From a virus, in the IMG/VR virus record IMGVR_UViG_3300017991_000048, positions 124,001 through 188,000 of that record: DNA of 64,000 nt; one strand, given 5' to 3'. A model generated the notes under the pieces. That model had not been told where the DNA came from and did no database searches. It worked only from the letters and a program-made list of their open reading frames with translations. Shown piece after piece: positions 2,112 to 57,541 of this stretch (position 1 is the first letter of the stretch; the number at the start of each line of letters is the position of its first letter). A program made the translations under genes and the position numbers.

Positions 2112-2143
2112 CCAGGATTTTCTTATGGGTGGCTTGTAATAAG

Positions 2144-15983: not shown

Positions 15984-17699
15984 TCACGGAAACATCACTT
16001 CACACTCAAGCAACAGATCGGCACCTTTGTTGAAAGACTTAACCTTGGCTTTGAACCCGGACACTCCCCTGGTGTTCTTCTTTATGGAAGCTTCCATGAC
16101 CTTTTCAACAGCTTGACGGGCTTTACGAGCAGCGGTGGCGTCCTCAGAAGCTCCTTCGATGGTCAGATAAACAATGGGACCGGAGCCTGCTTTTGCGTCA
16201 GAGGAATAGCCCTCAACTTCAACTTTCTCAATTTCTTTTGCAAGGCTACGCATCCACTTTGCAAGCCACCCTTTATCTTTTTCCATTTCCGCCATTTGTG
16301 CCTCCAAATACCGATTGACAATCTGTTGGGCTGCGGTCTTTTTAGCCGCTGCTTTCGCTTGCCACCTCTGATAGTACTGCTTTTGTTGTGCCCACGGCAA
16401 CGACCGAACCTTGACCTGGGGAAACTGTTTCCGAGACTTTGGGTTGGGGTTCGGAACCATGCTATCCCCAACTTCACGAAGGAACCGCATCCGAGTTTTG
16501 TCTTTGTCAGGTTCTTTCTTCTTCGGCTCTTTCTCCGGTTCTGCCTTTTCCTTCGGCTTCTCTTTCTTTTTCTTGGGAGTCGCTCCTGTAGCTCTTTGGT
16601 GCGCCTCTTCATTCATGCTCTTCACAGCCGTGGCAATATCTCCCTCTTCCGGTTTCTTGGGCAAGCCGCTTAATGCATGACCGTATGAGGTAGGCTTATT
16701 TAGTTTATAAGGGGAAATAGCGTAAAGGATCTTATTGATCTCTTTTGTCGCTTTCTCTTTTTCATCTTCGGACATACCCGCGAGCTTGTTCATCAGGTCT
16801 TTGGCCTTGGCCCGAAGCTTACTGGCTTCTTCGGGCTTGTCGTGCGGCGGTCCTTTACGATAGTGGACGAAGTTATCGGGGGATGCTGATTGAATATCCT
16901 TCAGGGCCTCTTCATTTTTCTCGTACCAGTTAGAAATATCAAACTGGTCCACCATCCGTTTTCCCCGGACCTTGCCACGGGAAAGGTTAGATAGCTCCGT
17001 GTCAGCCTGTTCCGGGTGAAGGAAAATGACTGTAACCTCGTACCCGTTAGATTTGGCGTTATCGATCTGGCCTTTGAAGTCTTGAGCGTCAATATCTTCA
17101 CCAGCCGAGTCAACAATCAGTAAATCCTTGACCTTTTCTATCTTACTGCTAACCGACTCTTCAAACCGGTGACGGGCCTCATCTTTATAACGTTCTTTTG
17201 GTTTGCCCGTCTCTTCGTTCTTTTCTTTAGGATCATCATGCCAGCCACGCATGGACACATAGAAATCTTTGTTGGTTTTTCCGAAAAACTCATCGAAGTC
17301 ATCAGGGAAATCATCATGCCCTACGACTTTACTTAACTCTATACGCTCTCCGTCCTTGGTTTCATACCAGTGATCTGCCAACGCTTTCTTGAAAGTATCC
17401 TTGCCTTTTTCGTGGGCTTCTTTGAGAGCGTCAAAGTGTTTCTGAGCCTCTTCAAACTGGATAGCTCGCAAATGGTTATCTGACTCATCCTGCTCAGGAC
17501 GTTCTGGGATGTCCTCTTCTGTCAGTAAAGGGTTGCCTTCATCATCCACGAGCATCTGTGGCAACTTCCATCCGAACTTGGGTGGCGGCTCCCCTAAAAA
17601 GAAGCCTTTACCCGCTGCCGGTGGTCCCATCATTACCACCATTCGCTTCTTATCGCTTTTGGCGTTTAGATAACGAGCTATGATTCGCTGCCTATTCAT
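15984..17699 (-). CDS. Zeta-toxin-like P-loop kinase with N-terminal and internal RYL motifs
   Basis: A 571-residue protein. It begins with the shared motif (QRIIARYLNAKS), then MVVMMGPPAAGKGFF, a Walker A loop. Asp-rich segments and a strand (VKDLLIVDSAGEDID) and VTVIFLHPEQ follow as in zeta-toxin/ATP-dependent kinases. After a Lys/Glu/Pro-rich linker (about residues 385-410) a second copy of the motif (QIVNRYLEAQ, from residue 460; bases 16296-16322) starts a separate C-terminal domain of about 110 residues. I infer a two-module protein. No antitoxin-like neighbour is seen. Kinase substrate unknown. It overlaps the upstream gene by 8 bases. Confidence 0.7.
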   Translation of the reverse strand: MNRQRIIARYLNAKSDKKRMVVMMGPPAAGKGFFLGEPPPKFGWKLPQMLVDDEGNPLLTEEDIPERPEQDESDNHLRAIQFEEAQKHFDALKEAHEKGKDTFKKALADHWYETKDGERIELSKVVGHDDFPDDFDEFFGKTNKDFYVSMRGWHDDPKEKNEETGKPKERYKDEARHRFEESVSSKIEKVKDLLIVDSAGEDIDAQDFKGQIDNAKSNGYEVTVIFLHPEQADTELSNLSRGKVRGKRMVDQFDISNWYEKNEEALKDIQSASPDNFVHYRKGPPHDKPEEASKLRAKAKDLMNKLAGMSEDEKEKATKEINKILYAISPYKLNKPTSYGHALSGLPKKPEEGDIATAVKSMNEEAHQRATGATPKKKKEKPKEKAEPEKEPKKKEPDKDKTRMRFLREVGDSMVPNPNPKSRKQFPQVKVRSLPWAQQKQYYQRWQAKAAAKKTAAQQIVNRYLEAQMAEMEKDKGWLAKWMRSLAKEIEKVEVEGYSSDAKAGSGPIVYLTIEGASEDATAARKARQAVEKVMEASIKKNTRGVSGFKAKVKSFNKGADLLLECEVMFP

Positions 17700-18351
17700 A
17701 TTGCTCCTTAAGTGCCTTTGCTCTCACCGCTCTATTAAGAACCTTACGAGTATCGTTGATGAGCTTATCAGGGTAATCAGGATCATCACCCATTTCAGCT
17801 TTCAGATCCTTGCCAAAAACTTCAACCTTCTTGGCAAGTGAACGAAGATGATCTCTTAAAGTGTTCTTCAATATTGGCTTTCCTTCGTCCCATGCCTTGA
17901 TTTGGGCTATTGTCCAGTCAATACCAAAAAACCCAGTCGTACCTTTGTCGAAATAGTGCCCCAAGTTAAATGATGTGAGCAAGGGGATAACCCGCTCTTC
18001 AAACTTTTCTAGTAGTTGACGAGTGTCTACTAATACAGCGGGGAGAGGTCCCATGTTAGCCTCTCCTTCGATCTTCAGTGTTGCCTTTACTTTAACAGAC
18101 CCGTCTCTATCCATGGTAAGAGACCCCTCTCCTGCAACTTTGCGCCCGTCTGTTGTGGCCATCTCAAGGGTAAAAGACCCTTTAGATTTCGGCTTGCACT
18201 TAATACTCCCTTTGGGTTCAGTGTTGTGCTTGTTCAATCTGAGCCACATGAGAATTTCATTACGAAAAGGCAAAAATTCATCGAATTCTATGCTGTCCTC
18301 TGTCGGCAGACCAGCGAAGCGTGTGACAACTCGATTTGTAATATCAGGCAT
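17692..18351 (-). CDS. Hypothetical protein with N-terminal RF motif
   Basis: A 219-residue protein. ITNRVVTRFAGLP at the N-terminus fits the shared motif. The middle has beta-strand repeats rich in Lys and Gly (GSIKCKPKSKGSFTLEM, GSLTMDRDGSVKVKATLKI), followed by helices (TRQLLEKFEERVIPLL; TLRDHLRSLAKKVEVFG). No recognised family. It lies between two larger motif-bearing genes, 3 bases from one and overlapping the other, so all are probably made together. Confidence 0.7.
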   Translation of the reverse strand: MPDITNRVVTRFAGLPTEDSIEFDEFLPFRNEILMWLRLNKHNTEPKGSIKCKPKSKGSFTLEMATTDGRKVAGEGSLTMDRDGSVKVKATLKIEGEANMGPLPAVLVDTRQLLEKFEERVIPLLTSFNLGHYFDKGTTGFFGIDWTIAQIKAWDEGKPILKNTLRDHLRSLAKKVEVFGKDLKAEMGDDPDYPDKLINDTRKVLNRAVRAKALKEQYE

Positions 18352-18354
18352 CGT

Positions 18355-21222
18355 TCACCTCTTTACATGAAACTTATCAATAATTGTTCCGTCTTTTAGG
18401 TAGCTACTTTCGAGTCCGGGAACAAGATATTGGGATTTTAATGTGCTGGCTTCATGCCCGACAGCTTTGGCTGTGTCCTCAAGAGCCTCTTTGAACTCAG
18501 CCTTGAGTTGGGTCTGACGTTCTTTACGGTCTGTGGGCAACTGTCCAGTTCTTACTTTCTTGAGCCTCTCTCGCATTTCATGGTTCGCGTGGAACCCCCT
18601 GATATCCTTGGCTGTGATTCCGAAAGGCTTCAGGTAAGCATTGACTTTCTCCGGTGTCACCCGACCGCTGTCCCACTGGAGAAGTCCCGCGCCGTTGTCT
18701 TTCATGGCATCATAAGCGTCCCGTAAGGCTTTTCGTATACTCTTGTCCGTGATTTTCTTCTCTTGTTTGACTCCTGACTTGCCCACGTACTTGATAAAGG
18801 CTGCGTCAGGCTGGAAACTCACGTGTTTACGTTTCCAGCCTGTGACGCCAAAATGACCGTCCTTGGCTGATAAGTCATTGCCCACTCGCTCATAGGTGTG
18901 ATCCATGAGAGCCACAGCGAGTGCTGTTCTTGCTATTTCCGGGTCTGAGGATCTAAGGTCTTTCTTAACTTTAGACCGGAGTTTCTTTATGGCTTGACCA
19001 AGCTTTTGGATACGTTCGGCTTTCTTACGGTTTCGATCGGCTACCTGACGTTCGGAGTAAACATATACCGTTGTCTTGCCCCCATCTTGAGAGGGAACCT
19101 GCTTCTTCTCTTTGTACTTGGCGGTCAGGTAGCGTTGAACAATTTGAGCAGCTATCAAAGTACGTCCTTTCAGACGGGCAAAAAGACGGTCCATCACAGG
19201 GCGAATCTCTGTATCAAAGCGTTCTTCTTCAACATAAGTGTCCGCGTCATAGCTCATTTGGGTAAGCCAGGGGTTAGAGATCCCGGCATCGATTAGCTTA
19301 TTATAAACGTACTGTTCGCACATACGCGCCCAGACTTCGGCGGTACTATGGTAATAGGTTAGCCTTCTATCATCGCCACCCATCATATTTTTGTACTGCT
19401 TTTGGACCTCTTCGTTTAATTCAGGTGGCAGTTCAGACCGGTACGCTGCCTCGTACATGGCATTATAGTAAGGGTGGTCCTTGGGTAAATCAAAATACTC
19501 CTTCCCCGTTAAGCTTTTGATCGCTTTTGGCATCGCCAAATCATAAGGTGAGCCGAGCTTGTCCTCCCACCTTTTGTAATCAGGCGTGGCTAATACAGCG
19601 TCAATAAATTCTACAAGCTCAGGAAATTCACTCTCATGTAGATAGTCTCGACGATACGCTAATGCCTCGCCTTCTCCAAGACGGCTCAACGGGACACCGG
19701 TCAGACCAAAGAGGTCACCAGGGCCACCTTTGATTCCCAACTCTTCTCGTTTCTTGGCTTGTTCAGGGTCTACTTGCTTTTGGATACGGTAAGCCAGTAA
19801 GTCTTCTAAGTAATGAGATAGCTCGTGGGCCAACAACCCCTCATAGTCATCACCAAATGTGACTCTGGGTTGCCACTCGCTTTTGTTATCCCAAACAAAA
19901 TAATGTGCCCTTGTCATGCCGCCTGAAAACTTATTGAATCGAAAGGCTAATTTTCTGTTATGTTTGCCGCAGAACCCTTTACCGAATACAGCTTCTAAAT
20001 CGGTTACGGCTCTAGACACGCGGCCAAGTATCTCTTTACGTTCCTCTTCTGTATAATCATGATCAAACTCTATATCGCCTGTGTCGTGCTTTACTTGAAA
20101 TTCCTCTTCAGTAACAGGTTCATATTGAAGCGGGACAAGAGGCTTCCCTTCTCGGACGGCTTTGTTTTTGGACGCTTGATCAATAATGGTATCAATGTCC
20201 TGGACCATCTCTCTCCCCACTATTTTACGTTCGACCGCTTCTTTAATGATCCGTTGCATTGTGGGAAAAGTTTTGGCTTTGCGTATAGAAGTAAGGAGTT
20301 TTTTCGTCTCACGGGGAAGTGTTTTGCGTGTTTTGTCAATACCTTCCCACCGCCCCACCTTGTTTATATATTCTTCGATCTTGAGGCGTGTAAATTCTGT
20401 GGGGCCGTCTGAATCAAGTTTAGCCTCACTGCGGAGTACCTTTTCAAGGGGAACTTCGTCCTTTCTTCTAATAATATTTAGGTTCGCACCGGCAATGTTT
20501 TGTACTTTTTGAAGACGTCTCGTGACATCTTTATAAGCTTCGAGACGTTCCTCTGGGTCGCTATCCTTATGTTTTTCCCAAACTTGATCTTGTTCAGCCT
20601 CAAGTTTATCAGCCAACTCTCTAAGGTTCTTTTTCTTGTCGGCTGGCATTTCGAACCAAGCGCCTGGATTGGCTGTCTCAGAGAGCGGGGCGTTTGGGGT
20701 CGGTAGCTTGATAACTTTACGGAATAAGGTTCGGAGTTTCGGAGGAATTGTTTTAACCTGGACAATAGTCTCCAGGAACTCTTTGACATCCCGCCCTTCT
20801 GTGCTGTCGAGGTTCCGGGCTATGTAGATGACTCTGAACAACTTGGGGTCGTCAATATCACGATAAGAGAGGTTTCTCAGCCCTCTGAAAGCAAGAGCCA
20901 ACTGCCGCAGAGCCTGTTGTTCCTGTCTTACATTCAAAGCGCCAATGGCTCGTAATGGTCTGATCGCAGGTTTTACAGCAGGGCCAAACCGCCCCTCTTC
21001 AAAAGCGTCTGCGAGGTCTAGACAGGCTTTGACAAAATCTGCATGAAAAGTTTTACGCAGTTGCAAATACTTTTTGATCTCGCTCTCATCGAAGAAAGGG
21101 TTGGTGACAATATAGTTTTGGGCCAACAGCATCGCGATACCGGCTGTTACGATTTCCAGGGTTTCTTCAGAATAAGCCGCTGTTAGATACCGGCCTACTA
21201 CGTTTTCAGAACGTGAAAGCAC
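18355..21222 (-). CDS. Fusion of HExxH metallopeptidase-like domain and DNA topoisomerase IB
   Basis: A 955-residue protein. Residues 5-15 carry the shared motif (ENVVGRYLTAA). A long helical part leads to a zinc site, LLAHELSHYLE (HELSH 466-470), with AEVWARMCEQ later as possible third-ligand helix. A second copy of the motif (IVQRYLTAK, residues 694-702; bases 19117-19143) precedes a type IB topoisomerase of the small viral/bacterial kind. Its active-site residues are all present: R779 (YERVGN), K799 (WKRKHV), R875 (DIRGF), H923 (VGHEAS) and Y932 (SQYLVP), with the H-Y spacing of nine seen in the vaccinia enzyme. It would relax supercoils through a 3'-phosphotyrosine link. The fusion is unusual. 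Confidence 0.85.
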   Translation of the reverse strand: MLSRSENVVGRYLTAAYSEETLEIVTAGIAMLLAQNYIVTNPFFDESEIKKYLQLRKTFHADFVKACLDLADAFEEGRFGPAVKPAIRPLRAIGALNVRQEQQALRQLALAFRGLRNLSYRDIDDPKLFRVIYIARNLDSTEGRDVKEFLETIVQVKTIPPKLRTLFRKVIKLPTPNAPLSETANPGAWFEMPADKKKNLRELADKLEAEQDQVWEKHKDSDPEERLEAYKDVTRRLQKVQNIAGANLNIIRRKDEVPLEKVLRSEAKLDSDGPTEFTRLKIEEYINKVGRWEGIDKTRKTLPRETKKLLTSIRKAKTFPTMQRIIKEAVERKIVGREMVQDIDTIIDQASKNKAVREGKPLVPLQYEPVTEEEFQVKHDTGDIEFDHDYTEEERKEILGRVSRAVTDLEAVFGKGFCGKHNRKLAFRFNKFSGGMTRAHYFVWDNKSEWQPRVTFGDDYEGLLAHELSHYLEDLLAYRIQKQVDPEQAKKREELGIKGGPGDLFGLTGVPLSRLGEGEALAYRRDYLHESEFPELVEFIDAVLATPDYKRWEDKLGSPYDLAMPKAIKSLTGKEYFDLPKDHPYYNAMYEAAYRSELPPELNEEVQKQYKNMMGGDDRRLTYYHSTAEVWARMCEQYVYNKLIDAGISNPWLTQMSYDADTYVEEERFDTEIRPVMDRLFARLKGRTLIAAQIVQRYLTAKYKEKKQVPSQDGGKTTVYVYSERQVADRNRKKAERIQKLGQAIKKLRSKVKKDLRSSDPEIARTALAVALMDHTYERVGNDLSAKDGHFGVTGWKRKHVSFQPDAAFIKYVGKSGVKQEKKITDKSIRKALRDAYDAMKDNGAGLLQWDSGRVTPEKVNAYLKPFGITAKDIRGFHANHEMRERLKKVRTGQLPTDRKERQTQLKAEFKEALEDTAKAVGHEASTLKSQYLVPGLESSYLKDGTIIDKFHVKR

Positions 21223-21225
21223 TTG

Positions 21226-21501
21226 TTATTTCTTCTGCTCTTCCTTCTCGCGCCTTTTAGTTTCTTGCACATCCTCTGGAGACATTTTGCGGATTGTGTA
21301 AAGCCCCATGGTCCGATTCTTTTTACGTCCTTTGGGCACAGGCTCAATTTCTATGTAAGGGATACCCCTCTTGTCCAAGTATACCCTGACCACTTTGGCT
21401 CGTTTGTTCTTAAACTTGCCAAAAAGGACGTAATCCCCTGGTTTAAAATGTGCCGTCAGAAACCGGGCAGCTACCCGGTCAGATGAGACTTTTCGGTCCA
21501 T
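21226..21501 (-). CDS. Small basic protein with N-terminal RFL motif
   Basis: A 91-residue protein. SSDRVAARFLTAHF is a clear copy of the shared motif. It is followed by a small beta barrel-like stretch (FKPGDYVLFGKFKNKRAKVVRVYLDKRG) and a charged helical tail (VQETKRREKEEQKK). The KPGDYV..G...NKRAKVVRV pattern resembles SH3/KOW-type nucleic-acid-binding folds. It lies 3 bases upstream of the topoisomerase fusion. Confidence 0.7.
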   Translation of the reverse strand: MDRKVSSDRVAARFLTAHFKPGDYVLFGKFKNKRAKVVRVYLDKRGIPYIEIEPVPKGRKKNRTMGLYTIRKMSPEDVQETKRREKEEQKK

Positions 21502-21526
21502 ACTACCTTGAGCTAATAAATATGGA

Positions 21527-22501
21527 TTAACCCTTCAGGGCTTGTTCATACTCGCTCAATAAACGCTGGAATTCGGAGTAGGGGTCATAAAAAGTCTTAC
21601 CCGGCTCGAACTTTACGGCAAACCCCGCAGCTTGAGTGTGACCACCGCCGCCCTTAGATTTGCAGAACTGGCCACAGTTAAAATCCGTATGGGAGCGGGT
21701 TGAAAAGCTCAGGGTGGCAAGCTCATTTGAGTCTACCCCAATGTACTCAAAACCTACTACTAAGTCGGCTTCATCGTGGAGAGCCTCAGCCGCATCGCTG
21801 CTGTATCTGGCTCCAGGGAAAAGGACGACTCTGGTGCCGAATGGGGTTGTGAACCTGTGAGCACCCTCAACAGCCTTTTCAACATCCCGTTCCAAGCGCT
21901 CTACAAGGATCTGCCCCACTGCCCGTCGATAGTCCCACCAGTCACAAAATTCCCGTGAAAATATCGGCTTTGAACCTGCTATAGTTAGCCACCCCTCTTC
22001 TGGGAAAAACCGTAATGTTTCAGAAAGGATGCAAGCCTTTTTCCAGTCCGGGCTCTGTCTCTGCCACGTGTCACGAATTCCTGTCAGATAGGCTAGCTCC
22101 CGTGCAAGGGAGCACTCATACCGGTTGTCCTGCAAAGGTAACCAAACTTCGTGGAAGGCCAAGACCGCCCCGCAGACCCCCGGCTGGAACAGTTCGTCTC
22201 CGAATACCCCATTCTCCCCGAACGCCTCAACAATCGGCTGTGCTGTCTTATGGTGGTCCAGGATCAGAGCGCCAGCTTCTATGAATTCCTTGTACCTGCT
22301 AGGGTGTGGGGAAAAGTCGCAGAATAACATACCCGGCTCTGGTTCCAACTCCAGGTGCTCCGGGGTATCGTATTGAATGAACCGGACCTCTACATGAGGC
22401 AGTGCGTTTTTACAGAATATGGCAGACGCAAGGCCATCAGCACATGAAGCATGTGAGACGACGATCTTGACTGCATTTAGTTTGTCCGTTGCTAAAGGCA
22501 T
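21527..22501 (-). CDS. DHH-family phosphoesterase
   Basis: A 324-residue protein of the DHH/DHHA1 family. VVSHASCADGLAS is the first metal-binding block, FCDFSP the second, LILDHHKTA the DHH motif that names the family, and KSKGGGGHTQAAGF the C-terminal DHHA1 glycine-rich substrate loop. Members (RecJ, oligoribonucleases, cyclic-di-AMP phosphodiesterases) hydrolyse phosphodiester bonds with Mn2+. At this size it fits a nanoRNase or phosphodiesterase more than a RecJ exonuclease. It could clear short oligonucleotides or degrade a signalling nucleotide. AACTGTAATA lies five bases before its ATG. Confidence 0.85.
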   Translation of the reverse strand: MPLATDKLNAVKIVVSHASCADGLASAIFCKNALPHVEVRFIQYDTPEHLELEPEPGMLFCDFSPHPSRYKEFIEAGALILDHHKTAQPIVEAFGENGVFGDELFQPGVCGAVLAFHEVWLPLQDNRYECSLARELAYLTGIRDTWQRQSPDWKKACILSETLRFFPEEGWLTIAGSKPIFSREFCDWWDYRRAVGQILVERLERDVEKAVEGAHRFTTPFGTRVVLFPGARYSSDAAEALHDEADLVVGFEYIGVDSNELATLSFSTRSHTDFNCGQFCKSKGGGGHTQAAGFAVKFEPGKTFYDPYSEFQRLLSEYEQALKG

Positions 22502-22506
22502 GTCTA

Positions 22507-22516
22507 TATTACAGTT
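22507..22516 (-). promoter_or_regulatory. Promoter-like motif variant AACTGTAATA
   Basis: A seven-of-ten match to the phage motif on the minus strand, keeping TGTAATA, five bases upstream of the DHH phosphoesterase ATG. The gap is too short for a normal ribosome site, as for the copy at 55186. Confidence 0.4.
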
Positions 22517-22531
22517 GAGCGCCCCGATCCT

Positions 22532-22759
22532 CTAGCCTATTAGATGATCCCAGAGAGTTTTTCTCGCGGCTCGCTTGAGAGGGATAATCAAAGTCGCTCC
22601 GTCAAGCATCTGATACAACAACTGTGTTTGTTCAGGATCAATCCAGGCACGATCAGCTTGACGAAGCGCCGTTAACCCTTCTGACGATACTCTTGACATA
22701 GGCACTGACATTTCAGGCTGATCGTGCCGGTCTTTAACTGTTTTCCATCCGGGCTTCAC
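22532..22759 (-). CDS. Small hypothetical protein with C-terminal LWDHL
   Basis: A 75-residue protein with a GTG start overlapping the upstream TGA (GTGA). SEGLTALRQADRAWIDPEQTQ leads to a hydrophobic strand (LDGATLIIPLKR) and the end RKTLWDHLIG, which resembles the C-termini of 24296-24793 and 1392-2111. No family recognised. Confidence 0.6.
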   Translation of the reverse strand: MKPGWKTVKDRHDQPEMSVPMSRVSSEGLTALRQADRAWIDPEQTQLLYQMLDGATLIIPLKRAARKTLWDHLIG

Positions 22760-23415
22760 AGGGCTTTCTTTTTCTCACGGATTCTATCCAGCAGTTCGTT
22801 TCGTAACTTCTGGCTCACGACCTGATCTCGCTGCTCTTTGGTCGAAGCATACCACTCATTCAGGGCTTCCAGGCTTTCAATGGATTCCAGTTCTTGTAAT
22901 AGCGACTGCTGAATGCCATCCTCCTGAAACTCAGCGGGTGGCTTTTTGAACTCCTGAGCCTCTTTGCCGGTCGCCGCTTCTGGCACCTCTTCCAGCTTAC
23001 TGGTAATTTCCGTGGCCTTTCTAGCCACGTCTATCGCCATTTCCAGGGCTTTCTGGGCCTTATCCTCTTGGGCCTTATCTTGTTCCATTATGGCGTTCAG
23101 AAGCAGCTTTAGGGCGTCCATGGCGGCAATAACAGCATTGTACTGGGCCTGTGTCTTTATTCCTGGTAACTGCTGGCGTAACAGGTTGACTATTGCATCT
23201 TCCGGTTCCGTCGATTTGGCTTCTGGTCCTTGTGCCACCTTCTTAAGTTCGCCCCAATCGAGCCACTCGTAATCTTTGGTCAACTCTCGCCAGAGGGCTT
23301 CATGTTCCGGACCGCCTACTTGAAGGGCGTGAATGGCCAGTCGTCTGACTTCCGCTTTCCACGCCTCTTCCCCTTTTGTTTCTCGGAACTGTCTCAGGTA
23401 TTGTGCAATTTCCAT
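22756..23415 (-). CDS. Helical, coiled-coil hypothetical protein
   Basis: A 219-residue protein predicted almost entirely helical. The N-terminal third has EVRRLAIHALQVGG and WRELTKDYEWLDWGELKK; the centre (MDALKLLLNAIMEQDKAQEDKAQKALEMA) looks like a coiled coil; the C-terminus (ALNEWYASTKEQRDQVVSQKLR) resembles short scaffold or DNA-associated helices. No catalytic motif. It lies one base from its upstream neighbour. Confidence 0.6.
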   Translation of the reverse strand: MEIAQYLRQFRETKGEEAWKAEVRRLAIHALQVGGPEHEALWRELTKDYEWLDWGELKKVAQGPEAKSTEPEDAIVNLLRQQLPGIKTQAQYNAVIAAMDALKLLLNAIMEQDKAQEDKAQKALEMAIDVARKATEITSKLEEVPEAATGKEAQEFKKPPAEFQEDGIQQSLLQELESIESLEALNEWYASTKEQRDQVVSQKLRNELLDRIREKKKAL

Positions 23416-23416
23416 A

Positions 23417-23704
23417 TTAGTGTAACTTTTCCTTGTCCTGTTTCAGGATCTCATAAAAGCGCTTCGACACACTCCGGATGTTAATCGGGGGTACACCGGC
23501 TGCCCTCAAGTGCATCTCGTAAAGTCCTTTGAGTAGCTGAGCGCCTGCCTCTCGGTCCTGCATAACCTTCAGGCAGGCGGAGCAGTAGTTCACTTCATCC
23601 GGGGCGCTATCCCCGATCGCTTTCTTTTCAGCGTCAGTCAGCGTGAAGGTTTCGCCAGTTGCATACGGCTTCTGGCATATGATACAAAGGATTTCTTCAG
23701 TCAC
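23417..23704 (-). CDS. Small zinc-binding hypothetical protein
   Basis: A 95-residue protein with a CIICQKPY pair near the N-terminus and CSAC about 33 residues later, forming a zinc-ribbon-like module, then a helical tail (LLKGLYEMHLRAAG). It overlaps the upstream Cys-cluster gene by 8 bases, hinting at co-translation. Function unknown. Confidence 0.65.
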   Translation of the reverse strand: MTEEILCIICQKPYATGETFTLTDAEKKAIGDSAPDEVNYCSACLKVMQDREAGAQLLKGLYEMHLRAAGVPPINIRSVSKRFYEILKQDKEKLH

Positions 23705-24299: not shown

Positions 24300-24793
24300 T
24301 CGTCTTCCAATAGATGGTCGTACAGGTTGGCGGAAGTCCTCTCCGGTGGCGGTCTTTCTCTCACTATCCTCTTCTGGCTCATTGGCTGAAAGTCTCTCGG
24401 TACTTTTATGGGAAAGTTCACCTCCCTGGTGAAAACCTGATACCGGAGAATAAGCTGATCACCGAAGCCCAACCGCAGTTCAGGGTTTAGGTAAAGCGTC
24501 CCGCCTATCTGGAATTCATCAATCTTGGCCCAGTCCAGGAGCCATTTTAAAATGACAACACCCCCAGAGGACGGCCTGTGGACTTCCAGCAACCGTCCTT
24601 TCCTTGGGGGTGTTGTAATAGCAGGCCAATCGCGGAGCGGGTTGCAGGGAATCGGGCAATCCGCTTCCACGCCTAGTATCTGTTTTTCTCTGTCCTGGGA
24701 TTCGATAAACGCCGTATCCGTAGCTGGATCTATTTTATGTACCAACCACAGCTTGGATTGTCGTTGTATCAAATCTCCAGTTTGGATTGCCAT
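24296..24793 (-). CDS. Hypothetical protein with C-terminal LYDHL
   Basis: A 165-residue mostly beta protein (DLIQRQSKLWLVHKI at the start, TLYLNPELRLGFGDQLILRY in the middle). A basic Pro-rich linker (RIVRERPPPERTSA) ends in NLYDHLLEDE, similar to the tails of 1392-2111 and 22532-22759. The disordered linker plus short terminal motif suggests a docking peptide. No recognised family. Confidence 0.6.
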   Translation of the reverse strand: MAIQTGDLIQRQSKLWLVHKIDPATDTAFIESQDREKQILGVEADCPIPCNPLRDWPAITTPPRKGRLLEVHRPSSGGVVILKWLLDWAKIDEFQIGGTLYLNPELRLGFGDQLILRYQVFTREVNFPIKVPRDFQPMSQKRIVRERPPPERTSANLYDHLLEDE

Positions 24794-24796
24794 TGC

Positions 24797-25741
24797 CTAA
24801 GAAGAAGGAATGCCAAGATCCTTAGGGTCCATGCCCAACTCAGAAAACATATCATCAGCCGGGGTTGAGCCAACGTCTATGGGTTCTGAAGAAGCGACAA
24901 CGGGTTCCTCCGTAGTAGTCGTCTCTGGTTCAGAAGTTTGAGCTTCTGGAGCTTCTGGTTCCGAAGGCGTGACTGTCTGCTCTGGGGCGGTCTTTACCTC
25001 AGTTGGAGTCGTCTCCTTGACAGTCTCTGGAGCCGTCTCCTTACGCTCTTTTGGGGATTTTGTCCCTTTCCGTACCCAGTCAGCAACCTTGAACCGACCA
25101 CGATCAACCGTTACGAAAATCTTGGCCTTTACAGGGTTACCGTTCTTGTCCTTGACAGTCTTACCTTTGTCGTCCACCTCGTTCGGGGCATCCTTACCAC
25201 CTCGCGCCCCACTGAAAATTGAACTCATGTAAGCTGGAAGATTGTTGCTTGGCGGAGCTTCACCTCTCTCTTCGAGAGCCGCTGCTATATCACGAGCGCC
25301 CATGACCTTTGCTCCCATTATGCGAATAATAGTCTCCGTCAAAGTTAGGCCACCCTTACGGGCGTTTGCGCCTTTCTTTTTCGCGTTGGTCTTGGTGCTC
25401 TTCTTTTTGCTATTACCGCCTGTCTTACGTGCTGACACAGCTTTACGTGCCGCTGGAGCCTTGGCAGGTGGTTTCGGTTCTGGCTTCTTCTCACCGATCA
25501 GCAGCGTTTCAGCTTCCTGCTTGACCTCCGCATATTCAGCGGCGGCTGCATCATACTCAGACTGCGCTACAGCGAGAGCTTTATCAGCTACATCCAGGCG
25601 TCCCTTTGCCTCTTTGAGAGCGGCTTGGACGATGCCCTTAAATTGGCCCTGTAATGTCAGGACCGCTTTTCGTAGCTGGTCTTTGGCTGTGGCGGGTTTC
25701 TTCTTTGCCGGTGCAGCCTTTTTACGTCTTCTATTTCCCAT
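24797..25741 (-). CDS. Histone H1-like protein with winged-helix-like domain
   Basis: 314 residues from the ATG at 25741 (AAGGAGA upstream; an earlier in-frame start at 25849 has no ribosome site). A basic N-terminus (MGNRRRKKAAPAKKKPATAK), a helical coiled-coil-like section, and a second Lys/Ala tract lead to a compact domain (LTETIIRIMGAKVMGARDIAAAL, YMSSIFS, FVTVDRGRFKVADWV) that resembles HARE-HTH-type winged helices. The last 90 residues are Pro/Glu/Thr-rich and acidic. I infer a nucleoid or DNA-compaction protein; the acidic tail may temper DNA binding. Confidence 0.75.
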   Translation of the reverse strand: MGNRRRKKAAPAKKKPATAKDQLRKAVLTLQGQFKGIVQAALKEAKGRLDVADKALAVAQSEYDAAAAEYAEVKQEAETLLIGEKKPEPKPPAKAPAARKAVSARKTGGNSKKKSTKTNAKKKGANARKGGLTLTETIIRIMGAKVMGARDIAAALEERGEAPPSNNLPAYMSSIFSGARGGKDAPNEVDDKGKTVKDKNGNPVKAKIFVTVDRGRFKVADWVRKGTKSPKERKETAPETVKETTPTEVKTAPEQTVTPSEPEAPEAQTSEPETTTTEEPVVASSEPIDVGSTPADDMFSELGMDPKDLGIPSS

Positions 25742-25795
25742 TTTATTTGGTTCTCCTTTTCCATTTGATACTAGGCTTCTGCCCGTCCCTTTTAC

Positions 25796-25805
25796 ATATA
25801 CACCT
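25796..25805 (-). promoter_or_regulatory. Promoter-like motif variant AGGTGTATAT
   Basis: A relative of the phage motif on the minus strand (GGTGTA kept), 54 bases upstream of the H1-like ATG, inside a 162-base gene-free stretch. The rest of that stretch is AT-rich and holds no ORF I can support. Confidence 0.3.
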
Positions 25806-25903
25806 TTAATCGGTGTTTTGAATCTAACTTCTTTTAAAGTTACACGCAATTAAATTAGGTAAGATTCTGAATTTAGGTCTTAGCGTGTAAATAGTTAGAA
25901 TCG

Positions 25904-26149
25904 TTATGATTCTTTGGTGTTAGGAAATTCCCGGTCCAAATCTACCTCATGGATAATGCCGAGTCTCCGGAGGTGCTGCTCTACCTGATTCGAACTTAAG
26001 GCTTTGCGTAATCCCTCAACTCTCCGGTCTTGACTCTTCTCGGCCCTCAGGATTGCTTGGCGTAATAACTTCTTCCAGCCGTCCTGACGGGTCGGCGGCT
26101 GAATCTGACGTTGAGATCTCTGCGGTTTCTGAATTAGGTGTACGGGCAT
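25904..26149 (-). CDS. Basic hypothetical protein overlapping its upstream gene by 134 bases
   Basis: An 81-residue basic protein (GWKKLLRQAILRAEKSQDRRVEGL, EQHLRRLGIIHEVDLDREFP). A GAGG site lies before the ATG. Its first 44 codons overlap, in another frame, the low-complexity end of the gene at 26016. Both frames stay open and look protein-like, but the overlap is unusually long, so one boundary could be wrong. A weak 6-bp hairpin lies at the stop (25899-25915). Confidence 0.5.
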   Translation of the reverse strand: MPVHLIQKPQRSQRQIQPPTRQDGWKKLLRQAILRAEKSQDRRVEGLRKALSSNQVEQHLRRLGIIHEVDLDREFPNTKES

Positions 26150-26474
26150 TTTCTACCTCATTCAATAATCGGGCTTCTATCGAAAGAACCTGATCTAAGG
26201 GGATATCCATCCCGGTTGCAAACAGCCGTAAAAAGACTTGGCGTTGTGTTTCCAGCATGTTCCGTAAGGCTGTGTTCTCAGCTTCGGCCTTTTGTAACGC
26301 TTCGTTTGCAGCTTCCAACTGGATCATCAATTGGTCAATCTTTTCAAGCTCTGGCTTGATCCGTTGAGCCAGTTCAACGACCTCTTGGAGAGGTCCAAGT
26401 GCCGAAAGAATCTGGGTCAACTCTTTTGGTACAGGCTTTTTCTTCTCTTTCGCTCTACGGGTAGCTCGATTCAT
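26016..26474 (-). CDS. Coiled-coil hypothetical protein
   Basis: A 152-residue protein: basic N-terminus (NRATRRAKEKKKPVPKEL), then a heptad-like coiled coil (VELAQRIKPELEKIDQLM, LEAANEALQKAEAENTALRNM), then a Ser/Thr/Glu-rich tail likely to be disordered. The tail is the part that overlaps the next gene. Function unknown; a structural or scaffold role is possible. Confidence 0.6.
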   Translation of the reverse strand: MNRATRRAKEKKKPVPKELTQILSALGPLQEVVELAQRIKPELEKIDQLMIQLEAANEALQKAEAENTALRNMLETQRQVFLRLFATGMDIPLDQVLSIEARLLNEVENARTPNSETAEISTSDSAADPSGRLEEVITPSNPEGREESRPES

Positions 26475-26480
26475 TATTCC

Positions 26481-26879
26481 TCATTGAGAGAAAGGCGGCT
26501 GCCCACGAAAGACTGCATAGAACGGGATTGAGCCAGGATTGTTAGGCTGATTGAATTGTGCCTGTTCTGCGTCCATCCGCTCCACTACCGGGAGCCGTGG
26601 GGTGGTCCTGGCCAGTTCTAACAGGTGAGGGTCGGAGGTAATTCTTATCAGGTCTTGACGGGCTTTCTCGTCACGCTGGAGAATGTATATAATCTGACAA
26701 TCTTCCAGAGTATCAAGCATACAGACCCCTGGAGCATCCCCATCGGAAGGGCCGTCACCTCTTTCCACCCAAACATTGTCCGAGCCGGGAACGTACAAAT
26801 CACATCGGCTGGTGGGTGCTTCACATTCAGGCAGTTCAGGGCAGACACACGGGGAAGTTTGACAGCTAACACAAGACAT
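26481..26879 (-). CDS. Cys-rich hypothetical protein
   Basis: A 132-residue protein with an N-terminal cysteine cluster (MSCVSCQTSPCVCPELPEC, then TSRCD), probably metal-binding. A soluble helical part follows (LEDCQIIYILQRDEKARQDLI), with a Pro/Gly/Asn-rich end. A GAGGT ribosome site precedes the start. No family recognised. Confidence 0.6.
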   Translation of the reverse strand: MSCVSCQTSPCVCPELPECEAPTSRCDLYVPGSDNVWVERGDGPSDGDAPGVCMLDTLEDCQIIYILQRDEKARQDLIRITSDPHLLELARTTPRLPVVERMDAEQAQFNQPNNPGSIPFYAVFRGQPPFSQ

Positions 26880-26905
26880 TTTTCACCTCTTAACTAAGCC
26901 GATTC

Positions 26906-27163
26906 TTAGGAGGATAACCAATCTGCCCGGAATATGATAGTGTGGGAGTGCTCTTTTTGACATTGGAGGTCCATCCGCGCATAAAGAAACGGCACTCTAC
27001 GCCTCAGAGCGTGAGCGAAGACTTCGATTTCCTTCTCACATTCAGGGCAGCGAGCATCACGCAGACGCTTTAGCATAGCGTCTACATTAGCTACTGCAAT
27101 GGCTGACTCGACCTCTTCGTCGGTTAGATCTTCTGAATCATCTTCAAGTTCTGGAATAAACAT
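26906..27163 (-). CDS. Small zinc-ribbon-like protein
   Basis: An 85-residue protein: an acidic N-terminus (LEDDSEDLTDEEVESA), a CPECEKE pair, and a later Cys/His pair (LQCQKEHSHTIIF) that together resemble a zinc ribbon ending in a beta strand. Its ATG overlaps the TGA region of the DUF1848-like gene by one base. Function unknown. Confidence 0.6.
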   Translation of the reverse strand: MFIPELEDDSEDLTDEEVESAIAVANVDAMLKRLRDARCPECEKEIEVFAHALRRRVPFLYARMDLQCQKEHSHTIIFRADWLSS

Positions 27164-27984
27164 TATGTCGTATCACGTCTTTCGGGGGATAGCTTTTCAT
27201 CCCCGGCATAACAATAGGAACAGTTGTAAGCACATGCTTCATTGATTGTAAAAGGATCAACCATTTTGACACAGCCGCATTCTTCAGTAAGTAAAGGCTT
27301 AGTATCTGTCACGTGATCCCAAAGGTTTCGGTTTATAAAATCAGTTTCCGGGACACAAACCCCCGTCGAGAATAAACCATTCGCTTCTACTAAATCTTGA
27401 TCGTCAGCGCACAGAAAAAGCTGTATCTTACACTTCACAGCCTGTTCTGTCATTTTGTTCAGTATCTCTATTTTCTCTTCGGTAGAACGTGTCTCTGGCA
27501 CCCGGTCATTTTCCTGGAGAAAAGACACATACACGCTCTTTATCCCGGCTCTAACAGCGTAGGAAAGAAGGTCATAGAATCGCGAAAGTACGCTATGAAA
27601 TGGCAACAAGGGAACGGGGCTGAACCGCCAATAGACTTTCTCAAATGTTTCAGAGGCTTGAGACATTAGAATCCCGGCTTGTGTGCTATTTGGTGGGCCG
27701 TCCTCCGCTTCCGTCCATCCGGTAGCGGTCATTTGCACGACCACATTGTAAGGTTCCAGAAGTTTACTACTTTTAATCAAATTCGTAGGATCTTTGGTCC
27801 AGAAAACAAGCCCTAATGTATCTTTGGGGTCCAGGGACCAGATCTCAGGTACGGCTGTTTGAGGGTCAAAAGCCGTCATTTTCCCGGCCAATAGGCGGTC
27901 TATAAACCAGTCCCATTTCCCGGCACAAACATCAGTCCACCGGGAAAGGCTATATGGAAGCCGGGATATGACACCACTCCGCAT
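27163..27984 (-). CDS. DUF1848-family protein with Fe-S-type cysteine cluster
   Basis: A 273-residue protein. SRWTDVCAGKWDWFIDRL, LGLVFWTKDPTNL, VVQMTATGW and SVYVSFLQENDRV follow the order of DUF1848, a TIM-barrel-like family. Near the C-terminus, INEACAYNCSYCYAG supplies a C-x3-C-x2-C cluster that could hold an iron-sulfur centre, as in radical SAM enzymes but at the opposite end. Activity is not known. It is preceded by a perfect CGGTGTAATA motif only seven bases from the ATG. Confidence 0.75.
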   Translation of the reverse strand: MRSGVISRLPYSLSRWTDVCAGKWDWFIDRLLAGKMTAFDPQTAVPEIWSLDPKDTLGLVFWTKDPTNLIKSSKLLEPYNVVVQMTATGWTEAEDGPPNSTQAGILMSQASETFEKVYWRFSPVPLLPFHSVLSRFYDLLSYAVRAGIKSVYVSFLQENDRVPETRSTEEKIEILNKMTEQAVKCKIQLFLCADDQDLVEANGLFSTGVCVPETDFINRNLWDHVTDTKPLLTEECGCVKMVDPFTINEACAYNCSYCYAGDEKLSPERRDTT

Positions 27985-27991
27985 ACCCTAG

Positions 27992-28001
27992 TATTACACC
28001 G
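27992..28001 (-). promoter_or_regulatory. Phage promoter-like motif CGGTGTAATA
   Basis: A perfect copy on the minus strand. It is followed by CTAGGGT and then the ATG of the DUF1848 gene. TAGGGT also follows the copy in front of clpX. Confidence 0.6.
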
Positions 28002-28021
28002 ATTCGAAGCTAAATCCAGAA

Positions 28022-28480
28022 CTATCTGAGAGGAAACTTCTTAGGTTTACGGACTTTCCTGAAACGGGTCTGCCGAACTTTGGGCCTGTACCCTCTTGAA
28101 ATTGGCTCCACGGTCATATCGAACTTCTTAGCAACCTGGGCCAACTCCGCCAAAGCCGTCCTCTCTGCTGTATCAACAGAGCCACCCTCGTCTACCGGGA
28201 CTTGCAGGTCCACCCGTGTTTCTGTGCGTAGGCCCTTTTCCTCATCAATCCGTGTCAGAAGACCCGATGATTGATGTCCGGTTACTTTCAAAAATATATC
28301 GTGGATCTCTCCGTCGTCGCCTATCACTGGCACAATGGTGCGATTGATAGCCCGAATAACATCGATGTTGAAAGGAATGAGCTTGCGCCCTTCCGCAAAT
28401 AAGACGCTCATCCTATCTACAGCATAGCTGAAGCCAGCAGTTTTGAGATAACGAGAAACAATCTGTTCTGCTGTTTTCAT
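28022..28480 (-). CDS. Hypothetical protein with N-terminal RYL motif
   Basis: 152 residues from the ATG at 28480, chosen because TGAGGA lies just upstream and because MKTAEQIVSRYLKTA is one of the clearest copies of the shared motif. The body (FAEGRKLIPFNIDVIRAINRT, IFLKVTGHQSS, ETRVDLQVPV) is a mixed alpha/beta fold; the C-terminus is strongly basic (RQTRFRKVRKPKKFPLR) and may bind nucleic acid. No family recognised. It follows the next motif-bearing gene by 7 bases. Confidence 0.7.
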   Translation of the reverse strand: MKTAEQIVSRYLKTAGFSYAVDRMSVLFAEGRKLIPFNIDVIRAINRTIVPVIGDDGEIHDIFLKVTGHQSSGLLTRIDEEKGLRTETRVDLQVPVDEGGSVDTAERTALAELAQVAKKFDMTVEPISRGYRPKVRQTRFRKVRKPKKFPLR

Positions 28481-28487
28481 AGTATCC

Positions 28488-29303
28488 TCAACGCCACACT
28501 GAGAAATGAGTGTCATATCCGATCTTGTTTTTCTTCAGCCACTCGTCAAACTTGGACCAACTCACATTTTTAAGAACTGTAGGATCGGCGTTTACTATTT
28601 TATAGAGCTTACGGGCTGCTGTTGGCGATGTTGACCCGTAATAAGTATAGTGAGGATCGGCCTGTTGGAAATCGGAACTAGGGCTATACGCTTTGAAGCC
28701 GGTCCACTTGGACATAAAGCTAAAGTCTTTGCCCTCAACTTCTATGGGATCTACATCCTCTGGGACTATGTTAAGATAAAACTCTGTTCTTTCGTGCCAA
28801 TCTTCTTTGCGAAGCCACTCTACATTTTCCTCTGAAACCCCTTTCTCAACACATCTGTCAGCCGCTTTTTCATAAGCGTCCAAAATCTTCTTTTTGATCC
28901 TTTCGTAGTTATCAGAGGAACTCAACTTTGCATCTCGAAGTATGTTTGAAGCGATGAAAGGATCAAACTCACCCATACCTCGACTACTGGGGTTCATCAA
29001 ATCCGCTACTTTGAGCTTTTTCTTACCTTTCTGGGGGAGTTCTTCTAAGAGCCATGTAGTTCTGCTCCAACGTAAGCGAGCATCACGACCCATAAACTTG
29101 CCATCCCAGTCATCCCAACGTCCAGTTCTCCCCTGGAAACGGGCCACAACTCGTTCAGCAGCCTCTTTGAACCGGTCCTTGTTCTTCTGATGCTCTTCGC
29201 GCCACTTCTTGGCGTCTTCAGGACTCATGTTTTCAGTGGGATCAGCGGGTTTACCCTCTTCAAACCGTGAAACTACATCTTCGCTTCGTTGCTCCGTCGC
29301 CAT
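28488..29303 (-). CDS. Hypothetical protein with two RF-type motifs near the N-terminus
   Basis: A 271-residue hydrophilic protein. SEDVVSRFEEG (residues 7-17) and, after an acidic helical spacer, EAAERVVARFQG (from about residue 47) are two copies of the shared motif, as if the protein had a second, older start. A globular part follows (DARLRWSRTTWLLEELPQ, YEKAADRCVEKGVSEENVEWL). The C-terminal 60 residues are rich in Tyr, Ser and Trp. No catalytic motif seen. Confidence 0.65.
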   Translation of the reverse strand: MATEQRSEDVVSRFEEGKPADPTENMSPEDAKKWREEHQKNKDRFKEAAERVVARFQGRTGRWDDWDGKFMGRDARLRWSRTTWLLEELPQKGKKKLKVADLMNPSSRGMGEFDPFIASNILRDAKLSSSDNYERIKKKILDAYEKAADRCVEKGVSEENVEWLRKEDWHERTEFYLNIVPEDVDPIEVEGKDFSFMSKWTGFKAYSPSSDFQQADPHYTYYGSTSPTAARKLYKIVNADPTVLKNVSWSKFDEWLKKNKIGYDTHFSVWR

Positions 29304-29316
29304 TATTGACTCCTAT

Positions 29317-30732
29317 CTAAGGCTGTCCCAAAAGTCCTTCAACCATCTTTACTGTTTTTTGATGCCGTCGTTTATCCCAATCTGAGAACTCTTCCGCAGA
29401 GAACTGCTTATCCGGATCAACGATAAACCAGTCAGGATGTATTTCCAGACCACCGGGTTGAGCATCAGCATCCCACCCCTTGGGAAGCAAGTCTCCCACT
29501 TCCCTGGCAATCTGGTTTAGAATAGAAGGGCTGGCTCCTTCGACTTCGATAAACGATCCGGGCCACTCTGAGCCAGCAGGGGTAAAAAGTGTGTCTCTCT
29601 TTATAACACCCCAAACCTTCGTGCTGTACGCAGCCTGACTGAAATCCTTGGTAAGCTGTTCCAGTTTCTTGGTAACAGCGGGAGTCCTACCCAAGCCCCT
29701 GGAAGCTTCACTCATTAGATCACACAAGGTTTCGAGGCTCTTGTACGCTTTGCCTGTATCTTTGGCATTTGTGGCTTTGAGCAGATCCTTTGCGTGACCG
29801 GGCATGTTCCTGGCAGCAAAAGACACAAGGTTCCAAACGACCTCTTTTGCGGTCTTCTGTTGCTCTTCATATCTCCTAACAACTGAAACAGCGGTGGTCA
29901 TATTCGCCTTCTTACTTACAGAACGCATAAGTTCTGACACAAGTTTAGCCTGCTCTGGCGCGTGTTTATGAAAACCTTTGGCGTCTCCTGTAAGTAACTC
30001 CACAAACGCTTCTGCAAATTGCTCACTGTGGTTCCCGGCAGGGTACATTGAAGCTGCGGGTTGATCGAAGCCCCACCCGTCCTTGTGCATCCAACCTTCC
30101 GGTGCCTTTTCTTCCAGGGCATGTCCAATTTCATGCAATAAGACCATCTCATTAGCGTATTCAGGCTCTCGCACCTGGATCTTTTTGAGCTTTGAGTTGT
30201 AGTCGGCTGTCCCTCTGGTTTCGCTCTTGTCGGTGGAAACAATGCCCTTGATGAGCTTTGCGTCTATCAAACCTTGCACCACTGGAAACTTCTTAGCCAG
30301 CCCTCCGAGAAGTTTCCCTATAGGTTCCAAGCCCTTACTGGTTTCGACGGGACTCTTGGCAGCGGGTTTGACTTGTAGCTCCTCACCCGCATGTAGAGCG
30401 CCTTTAAAAGCCAGACTCTTTTCCTTTTCCCACTCCTTTTTGGAACGTTCTCGCTCTTTTTCTTTCTGGCCACGGGTGATCTCGGCTTTGAGTTGATCAG
30501 CTTGATCAGGGCTAAGCTCAAAGCTTTTCATATATTCTCGCCACTTCTCAGGGCTGACTGAAACAGCCACATCCTCATACATCTGGAGCGACGTTTTATT
30601 CTCTACCCTTTTCCGCCACTCGCTCAGAAGGGTGCCCTTTTCCCGCTTTTGCTTGACCGTGTGCTTCTTGGGGTCAGCTTTGGGGTGCTCTTTGAAGTAC
30701 TCCCTCCGAGCCTCTTCTGACGGGAACTCCAT
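29317..30732 (-). CDS. HExxH metallopeptidase with internal RY motif
   Basis: A 471-residue protein. The first 130 residues are a charged helical region. A zinc site VLLHEIGHALEE (H200-E201-H204) follows, and EQFAEAFVELLTG about 35 residues on gives the likely third ligand; the same layout is seen in 2144-3418. From residue 281, AVSVVRRYEEQQ (bases 29863-29892), after an Asn-Met-Thr-Thr, repeats the shared motif and starts a second, helical then alpha/beta domain. So this too looks like a two-module protein with the motif at the border. Likely a peptidase, substrate unknown. Confidence 0.75.
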   Translation of the reverse strand: MEFPSEEARREYFKEHPKADPKKHTVKQKREKGTLLSEWRKRVENKTSLQMYEDVAVSVSPEKWREYMKSFELSPDQADQLKAEITRGQKEKERERSKKEWEKEKSLAFKGALHAGEELQVKPAAKSPVETSKGLEPIGKLLGGLAKKFPVVQGLIDAKLIKGIVSTDKSETRGTADYNSKLKKIQVREPEYANEMVLLHEIGHALEEKAPEGWMHKDGWGFDQPAASMYPAGNHSEQFAEAFVELLTGDAKGFHKHAPEQAKLVSELMRSVSKKANMTTAVSVVRRYEEQQKTAKEVVWNLVSFAARNMPGHAKDLLKATNAKDTGKAYKSLETLCDLMSEASRGLGRTPAVTKKLEQLTKDFSQAAYSTKVWGVIKRDTLFTPAGSEWPGSFIEVEGASPSILNQIAREVGDLLPKGWDADAQPGGLEIHPDWFIVDPDKQFSAEEFSDWDKRRHQKTVKMVEGLLGQP

Positions 30733-30735
30733 ACG

Positions 30736-31155
30736 TTACCCGAATATAGCTGTGATGTCGTACTTGTCTAAAGGATCGTCCACCGAACCGGCACCCGCCG
30801 CTGTGATCGTCCCGTAGATGGTGTCAGGACGTCCTCTTTGGTTAGTAAAAGGTATCTCAAATGTCCAGGTTTTGCTTGTGGGCATCTGTTGGCGATGATA
30901 GGGACCAGGGGCGTATTCCCGTGGGATTATATACTCTTCGTCGGTTAGCGTGAAAGGGATACCCTCTTTACGAAGTACATCAAAAATGCGATTAATCCCT
31001 ACCCAACTCTGGTCACTGTAAATGCCACGTGTGTACCTTTGGGTGAGCTTGTAAAGGTAATTGGTAGCCTTTTGTTTCCGCATCCCATCTAATGGGTTTG
31101 GAAGCTCCAGAGCAGCTTTATAACGAGTTACGATTCGGTCAGTTCTTGTGCCCAT
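30736..31155 (-). CDS. Hypothetical protein with N-terminal RY motif
   Basis: 139 residues from the ATG at 31155; a TTG at 31173 is possible. TDRIVTRYKAALEL matches the shared motif. After a basic helical region (KATNYLYKLTQRYTRG) comes a beta-rich part (KTWTFEIPF, PDTIYGTITAAGAG). No recognised family. It lies between clpX and the metallopeptidase gene in the same orientation. Confidence 0.65.
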   Translation of the reverse strand: MGTRTDRIVTRYKAALELPNPLDGMRKQKATNYLYKLTQRYTRGIYSDQSWVGINRIFDVLRKEGIPFTLTDEEYIIPREYAPGPYHRQQMPTSKTWTFEIPFTNQRGRPDTIYGTITAAGAGSVDDPLDKYDITAIFG

Positions 31156-57540: not shown

Positions 57541-57541
57541 A

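Follow-up and report, generated by a model that had tools for sequence, protein, structure and literature searches.

Why should proteins that have nothing obvious in common along most of their length begin with one and the same short peptide? The question was raised by the window, a 64,000-nucleotide stretch corresponding to positions 124001-188000 of the 398,071-bp virus record IMGVR_UViG_3300017991_000048, in which an earlier note had listed nine proteins with a shared N-terminal motif. All nine were present in the translations where they had been reported, and the statement that nothing obvious is shared after the motif held as well. So did the remark that some motif proteins are of the HExxH type: 2129-3418 contains HEMGH and 18355-21222 contains HELSH, and an unlisted neighbor, 29317-30732, contains HEIGH. 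The position given for the motif was accurate in the listed proteins other than 2129-3418 (or 2144-3418, depending on the start), where it begins at about residue 12-15. The tagged proteins and tag copies of the window are collected in Table 1.

Table 1. Positions in the window of tagged proteins and of individual tag copies
Feature	Position	Strand	Basis or remark
Class A N-terminal tag MSLPERIAERYQAAA of gene 518-916, whose body is a small VIRKEKGKYCVRSPNNPDWNGG domain	518..565	+	profile
Class A tag AKVVVSRFLEARA near the start of HEMGH protein 2129-3418	2162..2203	+	profile
Class D N-terminal tag MNPRKAFENALAK of 67-aa gene 11807-12010	11972..12010	-	missed in the earlier note
571-aa protein: class A tag, Zeta-toxin-like kinase, internal class A tag, C-terminal domain	15984..17699	-	
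N-terminal class A tag MNRQRIIARYLNAK of the 571-aa protein	17658..17699	-	profile
Internal class A tag KKTAAQQIVNRYLEAQ of the 571-aa protein, at the C-terminal-domain junction, KTA just before	16290..16334	-	
N-terminal class A tag MPDITNRVVTRFAGLP of 219-aa protein 17692-18351	18304..18351	-	profile
955-aa protein: class A tag, HELSH peptidase-like region, LPD1, internal tag, topoisomerase IB	18355..21222	-	
N-terminal class A tag MLSRSENVVGRYLTAAY of the 955-aa protein	21172..21222	-	class E MDYTYDHRWAA in G004 ortholog
Internal class A tag IAAQIVQRYLTAKY of the 955-aa protein, at the LPD1/topoisomerase IB boundary	19114..19155	-	
N-terminal class A tag of KOW protein 21226-21501	21448..21501	-	
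N-terminal class A tag MKTAEQIVSRYLKTA of 152-aa protein 28022-28480	28436..28480	-	
N-terminal class A tag EDVVSRFEEG of 28488-29303, continuing into repeat module B RFEEGKPADPTENMSPEDAKKW	29250..29303	-	
Internal class A tag EAAERVVARFQGRT of 28488-29303	29121..29162	-	
Internal class A-like tag MTTAVSVVRRYEEQQ of HEIGH protein 29317-30732	29854..29898	-	
N-terminal class A tag MGTRTDRIVTRYKAAL of 139-aa protein 30736-31155	31108..31155	-	profile

Genes were called over the whole record with a simple home-made codon-model caller, which gave 494 proteins. No close relatives were found with the window DNA as a query against phages or with the 955-aa protein as the sole query; relatives were reached only through the major capsid protein (MCP; phrog_2522), for which 529 relatives were detected in IMG/VR and 80 close ones were retained for locus analysis. 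The MCP is related to those of the 485-kb uncultured phage LR745208 (84%), Tunturiibacter phage Tunturi_5 (48%), and the cultured Bacillus phage G (40%). The comparisons cover only close relatives (G001, G004, and the L-numbered loci) beside Tunturi_5 and phage G. The phage family carrying the tags is one of giant soil phages, and a scan of genome contigs for a host gave matches in two MAG contigs only.

The motif, which we call class A, has the consensus RVxxRYLxA and is amphipathic and basic; its conservation stops at about position +7, which is Ala in 34 of 83 cases, and later columns are near background. A loose form of the pattern, [IVL][VIATLS].R[YF], was counted 20 times within residues 1-25 of the 494 proteins, where the rate in protein bodies predicts about 5. 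An iterated profile with a score threshold of at least 12 gave 20 N-terminal matches, compared to 0.4 in shuffled sets that preserve N-terminal and body composition. About 19 of these are convincing; the protein at 326201-326845 looks like a false positive. Because the profile was built from the same N-termini that were counted in this genome, the fair test lies in other genomes. Trained solely on this genome, the profile detected N-terminal copies in each of three related phages of 363-485 kb (16, 12, and 5; shuffled expectation, 0.4, 0.4, and 0.2) and none in the more distant Tunturi_5. A profile survey of this kind, which the earlier note had proposed as a check, speaks for the motif. In the capsid gene neighborhoods of the 80 retained relatives, we observed 20 N-terminal and 34 internal non-redundant matches (shuffled, 1 and 2.7). 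Since Tunturi-like capsid loci yielded only one N-terminal and one internal match, and G-like loci one and none, tag A is a property of its own clade. With so short a motif, and with amphipathic helices being common, chance likeness of short helical N-termini comes to mind, but it is refuted by the shuffles and the held-out genomes, with the control clade at 1 match versus 0.33 shuffled, and we give it practically no weight.

Class A is one of several such peptides. A de novo search that compared four-residue patterns at N-termini with those in random internal segments of 2,152 non-redundant proteins returned three groups, RVA.RF..A, [FYW].[YF]D.R, and P.RAFE, corresponding to class A, class E (YSYDRRxxA), and class D (NPRKAFExAL or NPRKAFExALxK), respectively. 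The single motif of the earlier note was therefore recovered de novo, but classes D and E had been overlooked. At the N-termini of this genome, the core patterns were observed 10 (A), 8 (E), and 8 (D) times against 0.5, 0.4, and 0.4 expected from the remaining parts of the proteins, the class E pattern being a broad one; none of the three occurs at Tunturi_5 N-termini. The motif is present in the two gene runs where it had been described as clustered, but tagging extends over the whole genome, to about 37 of the 494 genes, each with one of the three classes. Tagged genes are adjacent in 16 pairs (2.9 expected), and D or E genes lie close to A genes in 10 cases here (2.7 expected) and in 4 in G004 (1 expected); in G001, D and E genes were not close to A genes. 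Several tagged genes are situated far from the head operon (290-326 kb of the genome). Exact DNA scans detected class D in 6 contigs and class E in 18, counts that are not abundance estimates because the scan patterns were narrow. No description of these tags was found in the literature available as open-licence full text.

Most tags are N-terminal, as the earlier note had described for class A, but internal and C-terminal copies also exist. Three of the listed proteins carry a second, internal class A copy (the 571-aa protein at 459, the 955-aa protein at 693, and the 271-aa protein at 51), as does the unlisted neighbor 29317-30732 at 283, a protein that starts with module C MEFPSEEARREYFKEHPKADP. 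C-terminal copies were observed in G001 251524, G004 70657, and G004 56501. Given these internal and C-terminal copies, the tag is more than an N-terminal signal. The internal tag IAAQIVQRYLTAKY is preserved in the L305 and L306 orthologs of the 955-aa protein, and the G004 ortholog, which is without the topoisomerase, ends at the equivalent tag, so that the tag forms its C-terminus.

The same protein bodies occur behind different tags. The VIRKEKGKYCVRSPNNPDWNGG body of 518-916 bears other class A tags in L081, L092, and L096. The 955-aa protein begins with class A here and with class E in G004, where the ortholog is 46% identical over 727 aa; the gene at 300022 of this genome is class E, and its L065 and L070 orthologs are class A; and L056 14763 (class A) and L068 8255 (class E) are 62% identical past the tag. 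Within this genome, MDQNRWKAA and MSKLAERVVKRYA each lead into KKKVPPEFLEQQKKMKEK. By these ortholog swaps, which are evolutionary and not experimental, the tag is exchangeable between proteins.

Tags also mark the places where proteins are joined or separated. The 151-aa product of the gene at 115386 of this genome, with an N-terminal tag, corresponds to the C-terminal part of the 368-aa G001 247809, in which a tag stands at 222; likewise, 28022-28480 matches the C-terminal portion of a G001 protein of 545 aa with an internal tag at 413. The second tag of 28488-29303, EAAERVVARFQGRT, is N-terminal in a separate G001 gene (295377-296066, 229 aa). The domain ahead of the topoisomerase IB unit is LPD1 here and a KOW domain in G001, and a tag precedes the unit both times. 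Two-unit proteins include G001 293736-295373 and the 955-aa protein. In the head operon itself, a portal-adjacent protein of 900-1400 aa (311503-314202 in this genome) contains RV[LV]xR[FW]xxA after GGS, at about residue 72, in nearly all relatives inspected; in this genome and in L021, HTA stands at the GGS site instead of the tag. The body of 28022-28480 is embedded in the portal-adjacent protein of L046, L064, and L100, behind [KHR]TA, and [KHR]TA|G always precedes this embedded module where the class A tag is absent.

Identical tag residues were encoded by differing codons in 71% of comparisons, compared to 73% expected from genome codon use, and DNA upstream of tags was no more similar than random. 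Because codon choice in the tags is random, selection acts on the peptide; the tag is under protein-level selection. A mobile 5' gene cassette, spreading by recombination and leaving a peptide without function of its own, could account for tags on unrelated bodies and for the frequent fusions and fissions. Against it stand a consensus maintained over several genomes, the random codon choice, and the unrelated upstream DNA, and we reject it as very improbable.

In the head operon, KTA is the most overrepresented tripeptide (21 occurrences versus 6.1 expected from dipeptides), with a density 4.75-fold that elsewhere (p=2e-7); KAT, TKA, and ATK showed no enrichment there. Near the N-termini of tagged proteins, KTA is enriched 11-fold. 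[KR]TA falls within residues 5-30 in 18 of 100 tagged but 38 of 2,027 untagged proteins (p=1e-11), and a KTA-type site lies just upstream of 11 of 54 internal class A tags, compared to 4% at random. Only 7 of 53 class A N-termini have [KR]TA, [KR].TA, or [KR]TG, and class A and KTA are not obligatorily linked. KTA is enriched also in Tunturi-like head loci, which are without tag A and in which the de novo search gave no clear tag, and in the head region of phage G (p=0.001), so this head feature is broader than tag A. The enrichment suggests that KTA is a candidate cleavage site, and the head maturation protease (phrog_18299; 308711-310216 of the genome), which has a predicted catalytic serine, would be the enzyme that cuts there. 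The MCP N-terminus, ISEYIKTA, was considered as a homolog or mimic of tag A and rejected, its profile score being not significant (rank 34 of 494); we retain it simply as a KTA-bearing N-terminus.

These observations raise the alternative that the tag serves the head protease solely as a polyprotein or propeptide processing site, with the bodies themselves driving entry into the head. Internal copies at domain junctions and the closeness of KTA to many tags fit this explanation. However, the conserved residues reach 8-12 positions upstream of the putative cut, farther than recognition by a protease requires; tags are mostly N-terminal, a position at which cutting on its own releases nothing; and C-terminal copies exist. 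We regard processing alone as quite unlikely.

The bodies behind the tags include a Zeta-toxin-like kinase (PF06414, E=6e-6, in the 571-aa protein), LPD1, topoisomerase IB, a KOW domain, DUF5662, ART-PolyVal (L056 16390), and M78-like and other HExxH proteins. A poly(A)-polymerase-type protein of G001 is also among them, with its tag at the C-terminus. Several effector-type domains are united in the 955-aa polypeptide: the HELSH region, LPD1 (PF18796, 620-685), and topoisomerase IB (PF01028, 729-930, E=6e-26). Its structure was predicted with low confidence (pTM 0.34), and the tag segments, which are among the least confident stretches, may be flexible linkers, as the model weakly suggests. 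Searches of the tagged bodies against PHROG and most Pfam searches gave no match, and for the 28022-28480 body a fold search of PDB and viral models returned nothing at E<=0.001. Tags are absent from all 13 replication and core genes inspected (polymerase, helicases, ligase, RNR, GroEL, MCP, portal, terminase, and others).

This set of clients bears on whether the tag could instead be a localization or binding signal unrelated to the head, for example, an amphipathic helix directed to a membrane, the nucleoid, a replication compartment, or a host chaperone or protease. The amphipathic and basic character of class A would suit such a role, as would the many tagged genes outside the head operon. 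Yet internal tags occupy a fixed site in a head-operon protein, the client domains are those of packaged polyvalent proteins, the inspected replication enzymes are untagged, and three dissimilar tags replace one another. We therefore consider a signal of this kind unlikely.

With moderate confidence, we favor capsid targeting followed by proteolytic release, mediated by interchangeable tags on injected proteins. At least three exchangeable tags of 10-18 residues (A, D, and E) would be attached to virion-internal, injected proteins. The tag would bind the prohead core or scaffold (the scaffold gene lies at 307467-308660 of the genome), and the protein would thereby be carried into the head. There the head maturation protease (308711-310216) would cut the chain at the tag or beside it, the probable site being after Ala in [KR]-x-A or [KR]TA. 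N-terminal tags would be removed in this step and polyproteins divided at internal ones; the separate effectors freed in this way would be injected with the DNA into the next cell. Head entry, the binding partner, cleavage, and injection are steps that we infer from sequence. The proposal of the earlier note, that the motif marks cargo for packaging or a processing site of injected proteins, gains indirect support from the swaps, the junction tags, the head-operon site, the client domains, and KTA, and both of its halves keep their inferred character. For the C-terminal copies, removal of a propeptide would have no obvious purpose, which counts against this best explanation. So do the loose association of class A with KTA, the KTA enrichment in Tunturi-like loci that are devoid of tag A, the distance of D and E genes from A genes in G001, the non-significant score of the MCP N-terminus, and the tagged genes remote from the head operon.

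A more specific form of targeting and release, to which we assign slightly less than an even chance, is a packaging code in which exchangeable tags and a [KR]TA-specific head protease would load and cut about 40 effectors per virion, with phage G using a divergent MKRLIKKA/S, also on ADP-ribosyltransferase-like proteins. Under such a code, tags may be N-terminal, C-terminal, or interdomain, and some effectors would be delivered as polyproteins.

The closest precedent for targeting and release is found in T4. There a stretch as short as the first 10 residues of IPIII is enough to direct a protein to the head, and the prohead protease gp21 takes the peptide off; gp21-cut capsid-targeting sequences are present on IPI, IPII, IPIII, and Alt (PMC9026906, PMC7411985), and that of the ADP-ribosyltransferase Alt packages the enzyme (PMC7411985). 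In both systems, a short N-terminal peptide is common to otherwise unrelated proteins, and ADP-ribosyltransferases are among the clients in T4, in one phage of the family described here, and, by sequence, in phage G. Sequence homology is absent: IPII and IPIII have identical N-termini, MKTYQEFIAEA, which differ from the consensus of tags A, D, and E. In contrast to T4, several interchangeable classes serve tens of clients here instead of four, tags also occur between fused domains and at C-termini, and the candidate P1 residue is Ala rather than Glu, with targeting and cleavage here predicted from sequence.

In SPN3US and phiKZ, head proteins are processed at AXE| tripeptide sites by gp245, and targeting of the SPN3US protease has been ascribed to a C-terminal propeptide (PMC10052503, PMC7411985). 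These are likewise large-genome phages with a phage protease and a tripeptide site, which in our case is a candidate one. They belong to a different phage lineage, however, and their propeptides are mostly 111-254 residues and protein-specific, whereas the tags here are 10-18 residues, common, and swappable, and overrepresentation points to KTA. Polyvalent proteins of phages and conjugative elements, which combine LPD domains, ARTs, and metallopeptidases, are predicted to be packaged and injected (PMC5512222). LPD1 and ART-PolyVal on tagged proteins and the multidomain polypeptides resemble them; no common tag or junction motif is described in the parts of that account consulted, whereas the units here bear a short tag in common and can also be encoded by genes of their own.

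If targeting and release by tags is correct, the tags provide a sequence handle by which the injected effectors of giant phages, a set otherwise almost wholly unannotated, could be picked straight from genomes. The T4 capsid-targeting idea, which concerns four proteins of a single virus group, would widen to a system with multiple tags, tens of clients, and polyprotein cargo, and the tags may supply short peptides with which very large capsids could be loaded with proteins. The explanation would be testable in phage G, which is cultured and has an N-terminal tag of its own, MKRL[IV]KK[A/S], in 10 strict cases among 634 called proteins; KRL[IV]K cores occur at 11 N-termini there, compared to 1.2 expected. 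Phage G products bearing MKRLIKK include gp38, gp53, and gp251. One phage G ART-like protein has weak Pfam support (PARP, E=2.5e-4, below the curated cutoff), and of the five short phage G proteins with an HGT[S/D] ADP-ribosyltransferase-like start, four carry MKRL[IV]KK[A/S].

The tripeptide most over-represented in the head operon (genome 290000-326000, outside the window) was KTA, which was also enriched in head genes of Tunturi-like phages and of the cultured relative phage G (NC_023719). Several proteins carried the class A motif (N-terminal tag RVxxRYLxA) at their very C-terminal end, in some cases preceded by the candidate cleavage site [KR]TA. In phage G, a divergent N-terminal tag, MKRL[IV]KK[A/S], was carried by at least 10 proteins, four of them ADP-ribosyltransferase-like. 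A nucleoside-deoxyribosyltransferase-like protein was untagged in the window (5461-5934) and bore MKRLVKA in phage G (244460-245650).

Other modules recurred. Relatives had several copies of RFEEGKPADPTxNMSPEDAKKWKxxxxKNKDKF in one protein of the head operon, and this module also stood at tagged N-termini; a second element, FPTEEARKKYLKEHPKADPSKHTVK, was found between domains and at N-termini. Three proteins shared an N-terminal module ending in PSRxxLAxDLxxLAxRVA, followed in the window copy by DUF7007 (PF22653).

Locations of recurrent elements (G001, G004, related phages; L-numbers, sequences from relatives)
Element	Window	Genome	Other
RFEEGKPADPT module	28488-29303	294865-296484	L030, L031, L036, L039, L052 and others
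FPTEEARKKYLKEHPKADPSKHTVK	start of 29317-30732	268949-271990 (3 copies)	L054/L055 residue 78; G004 47641, 86699
PSRxxLAxDLxxLAxRVA module	12470-13183	33291, 300664	
C-terminal class A motif			G004 70657-71388, 56501-58729; G001 251524-252738; L065, L068, L069
MKRL[IV]KK[A/S] (examples)			phage G 28218-28733, 35181-36314, 178671-179204, 245994-246467, 446709-447356

The product of window 4734-5240 had a basic, Lys/Ala/Pro-rich, histone-H1-like C-terminal tail (KAAPKKAAKKKKK), and a collagen-like protein of 2267 aa (genome 286112-292915) contained many G-x-T repeats (GATGPTGNTG).
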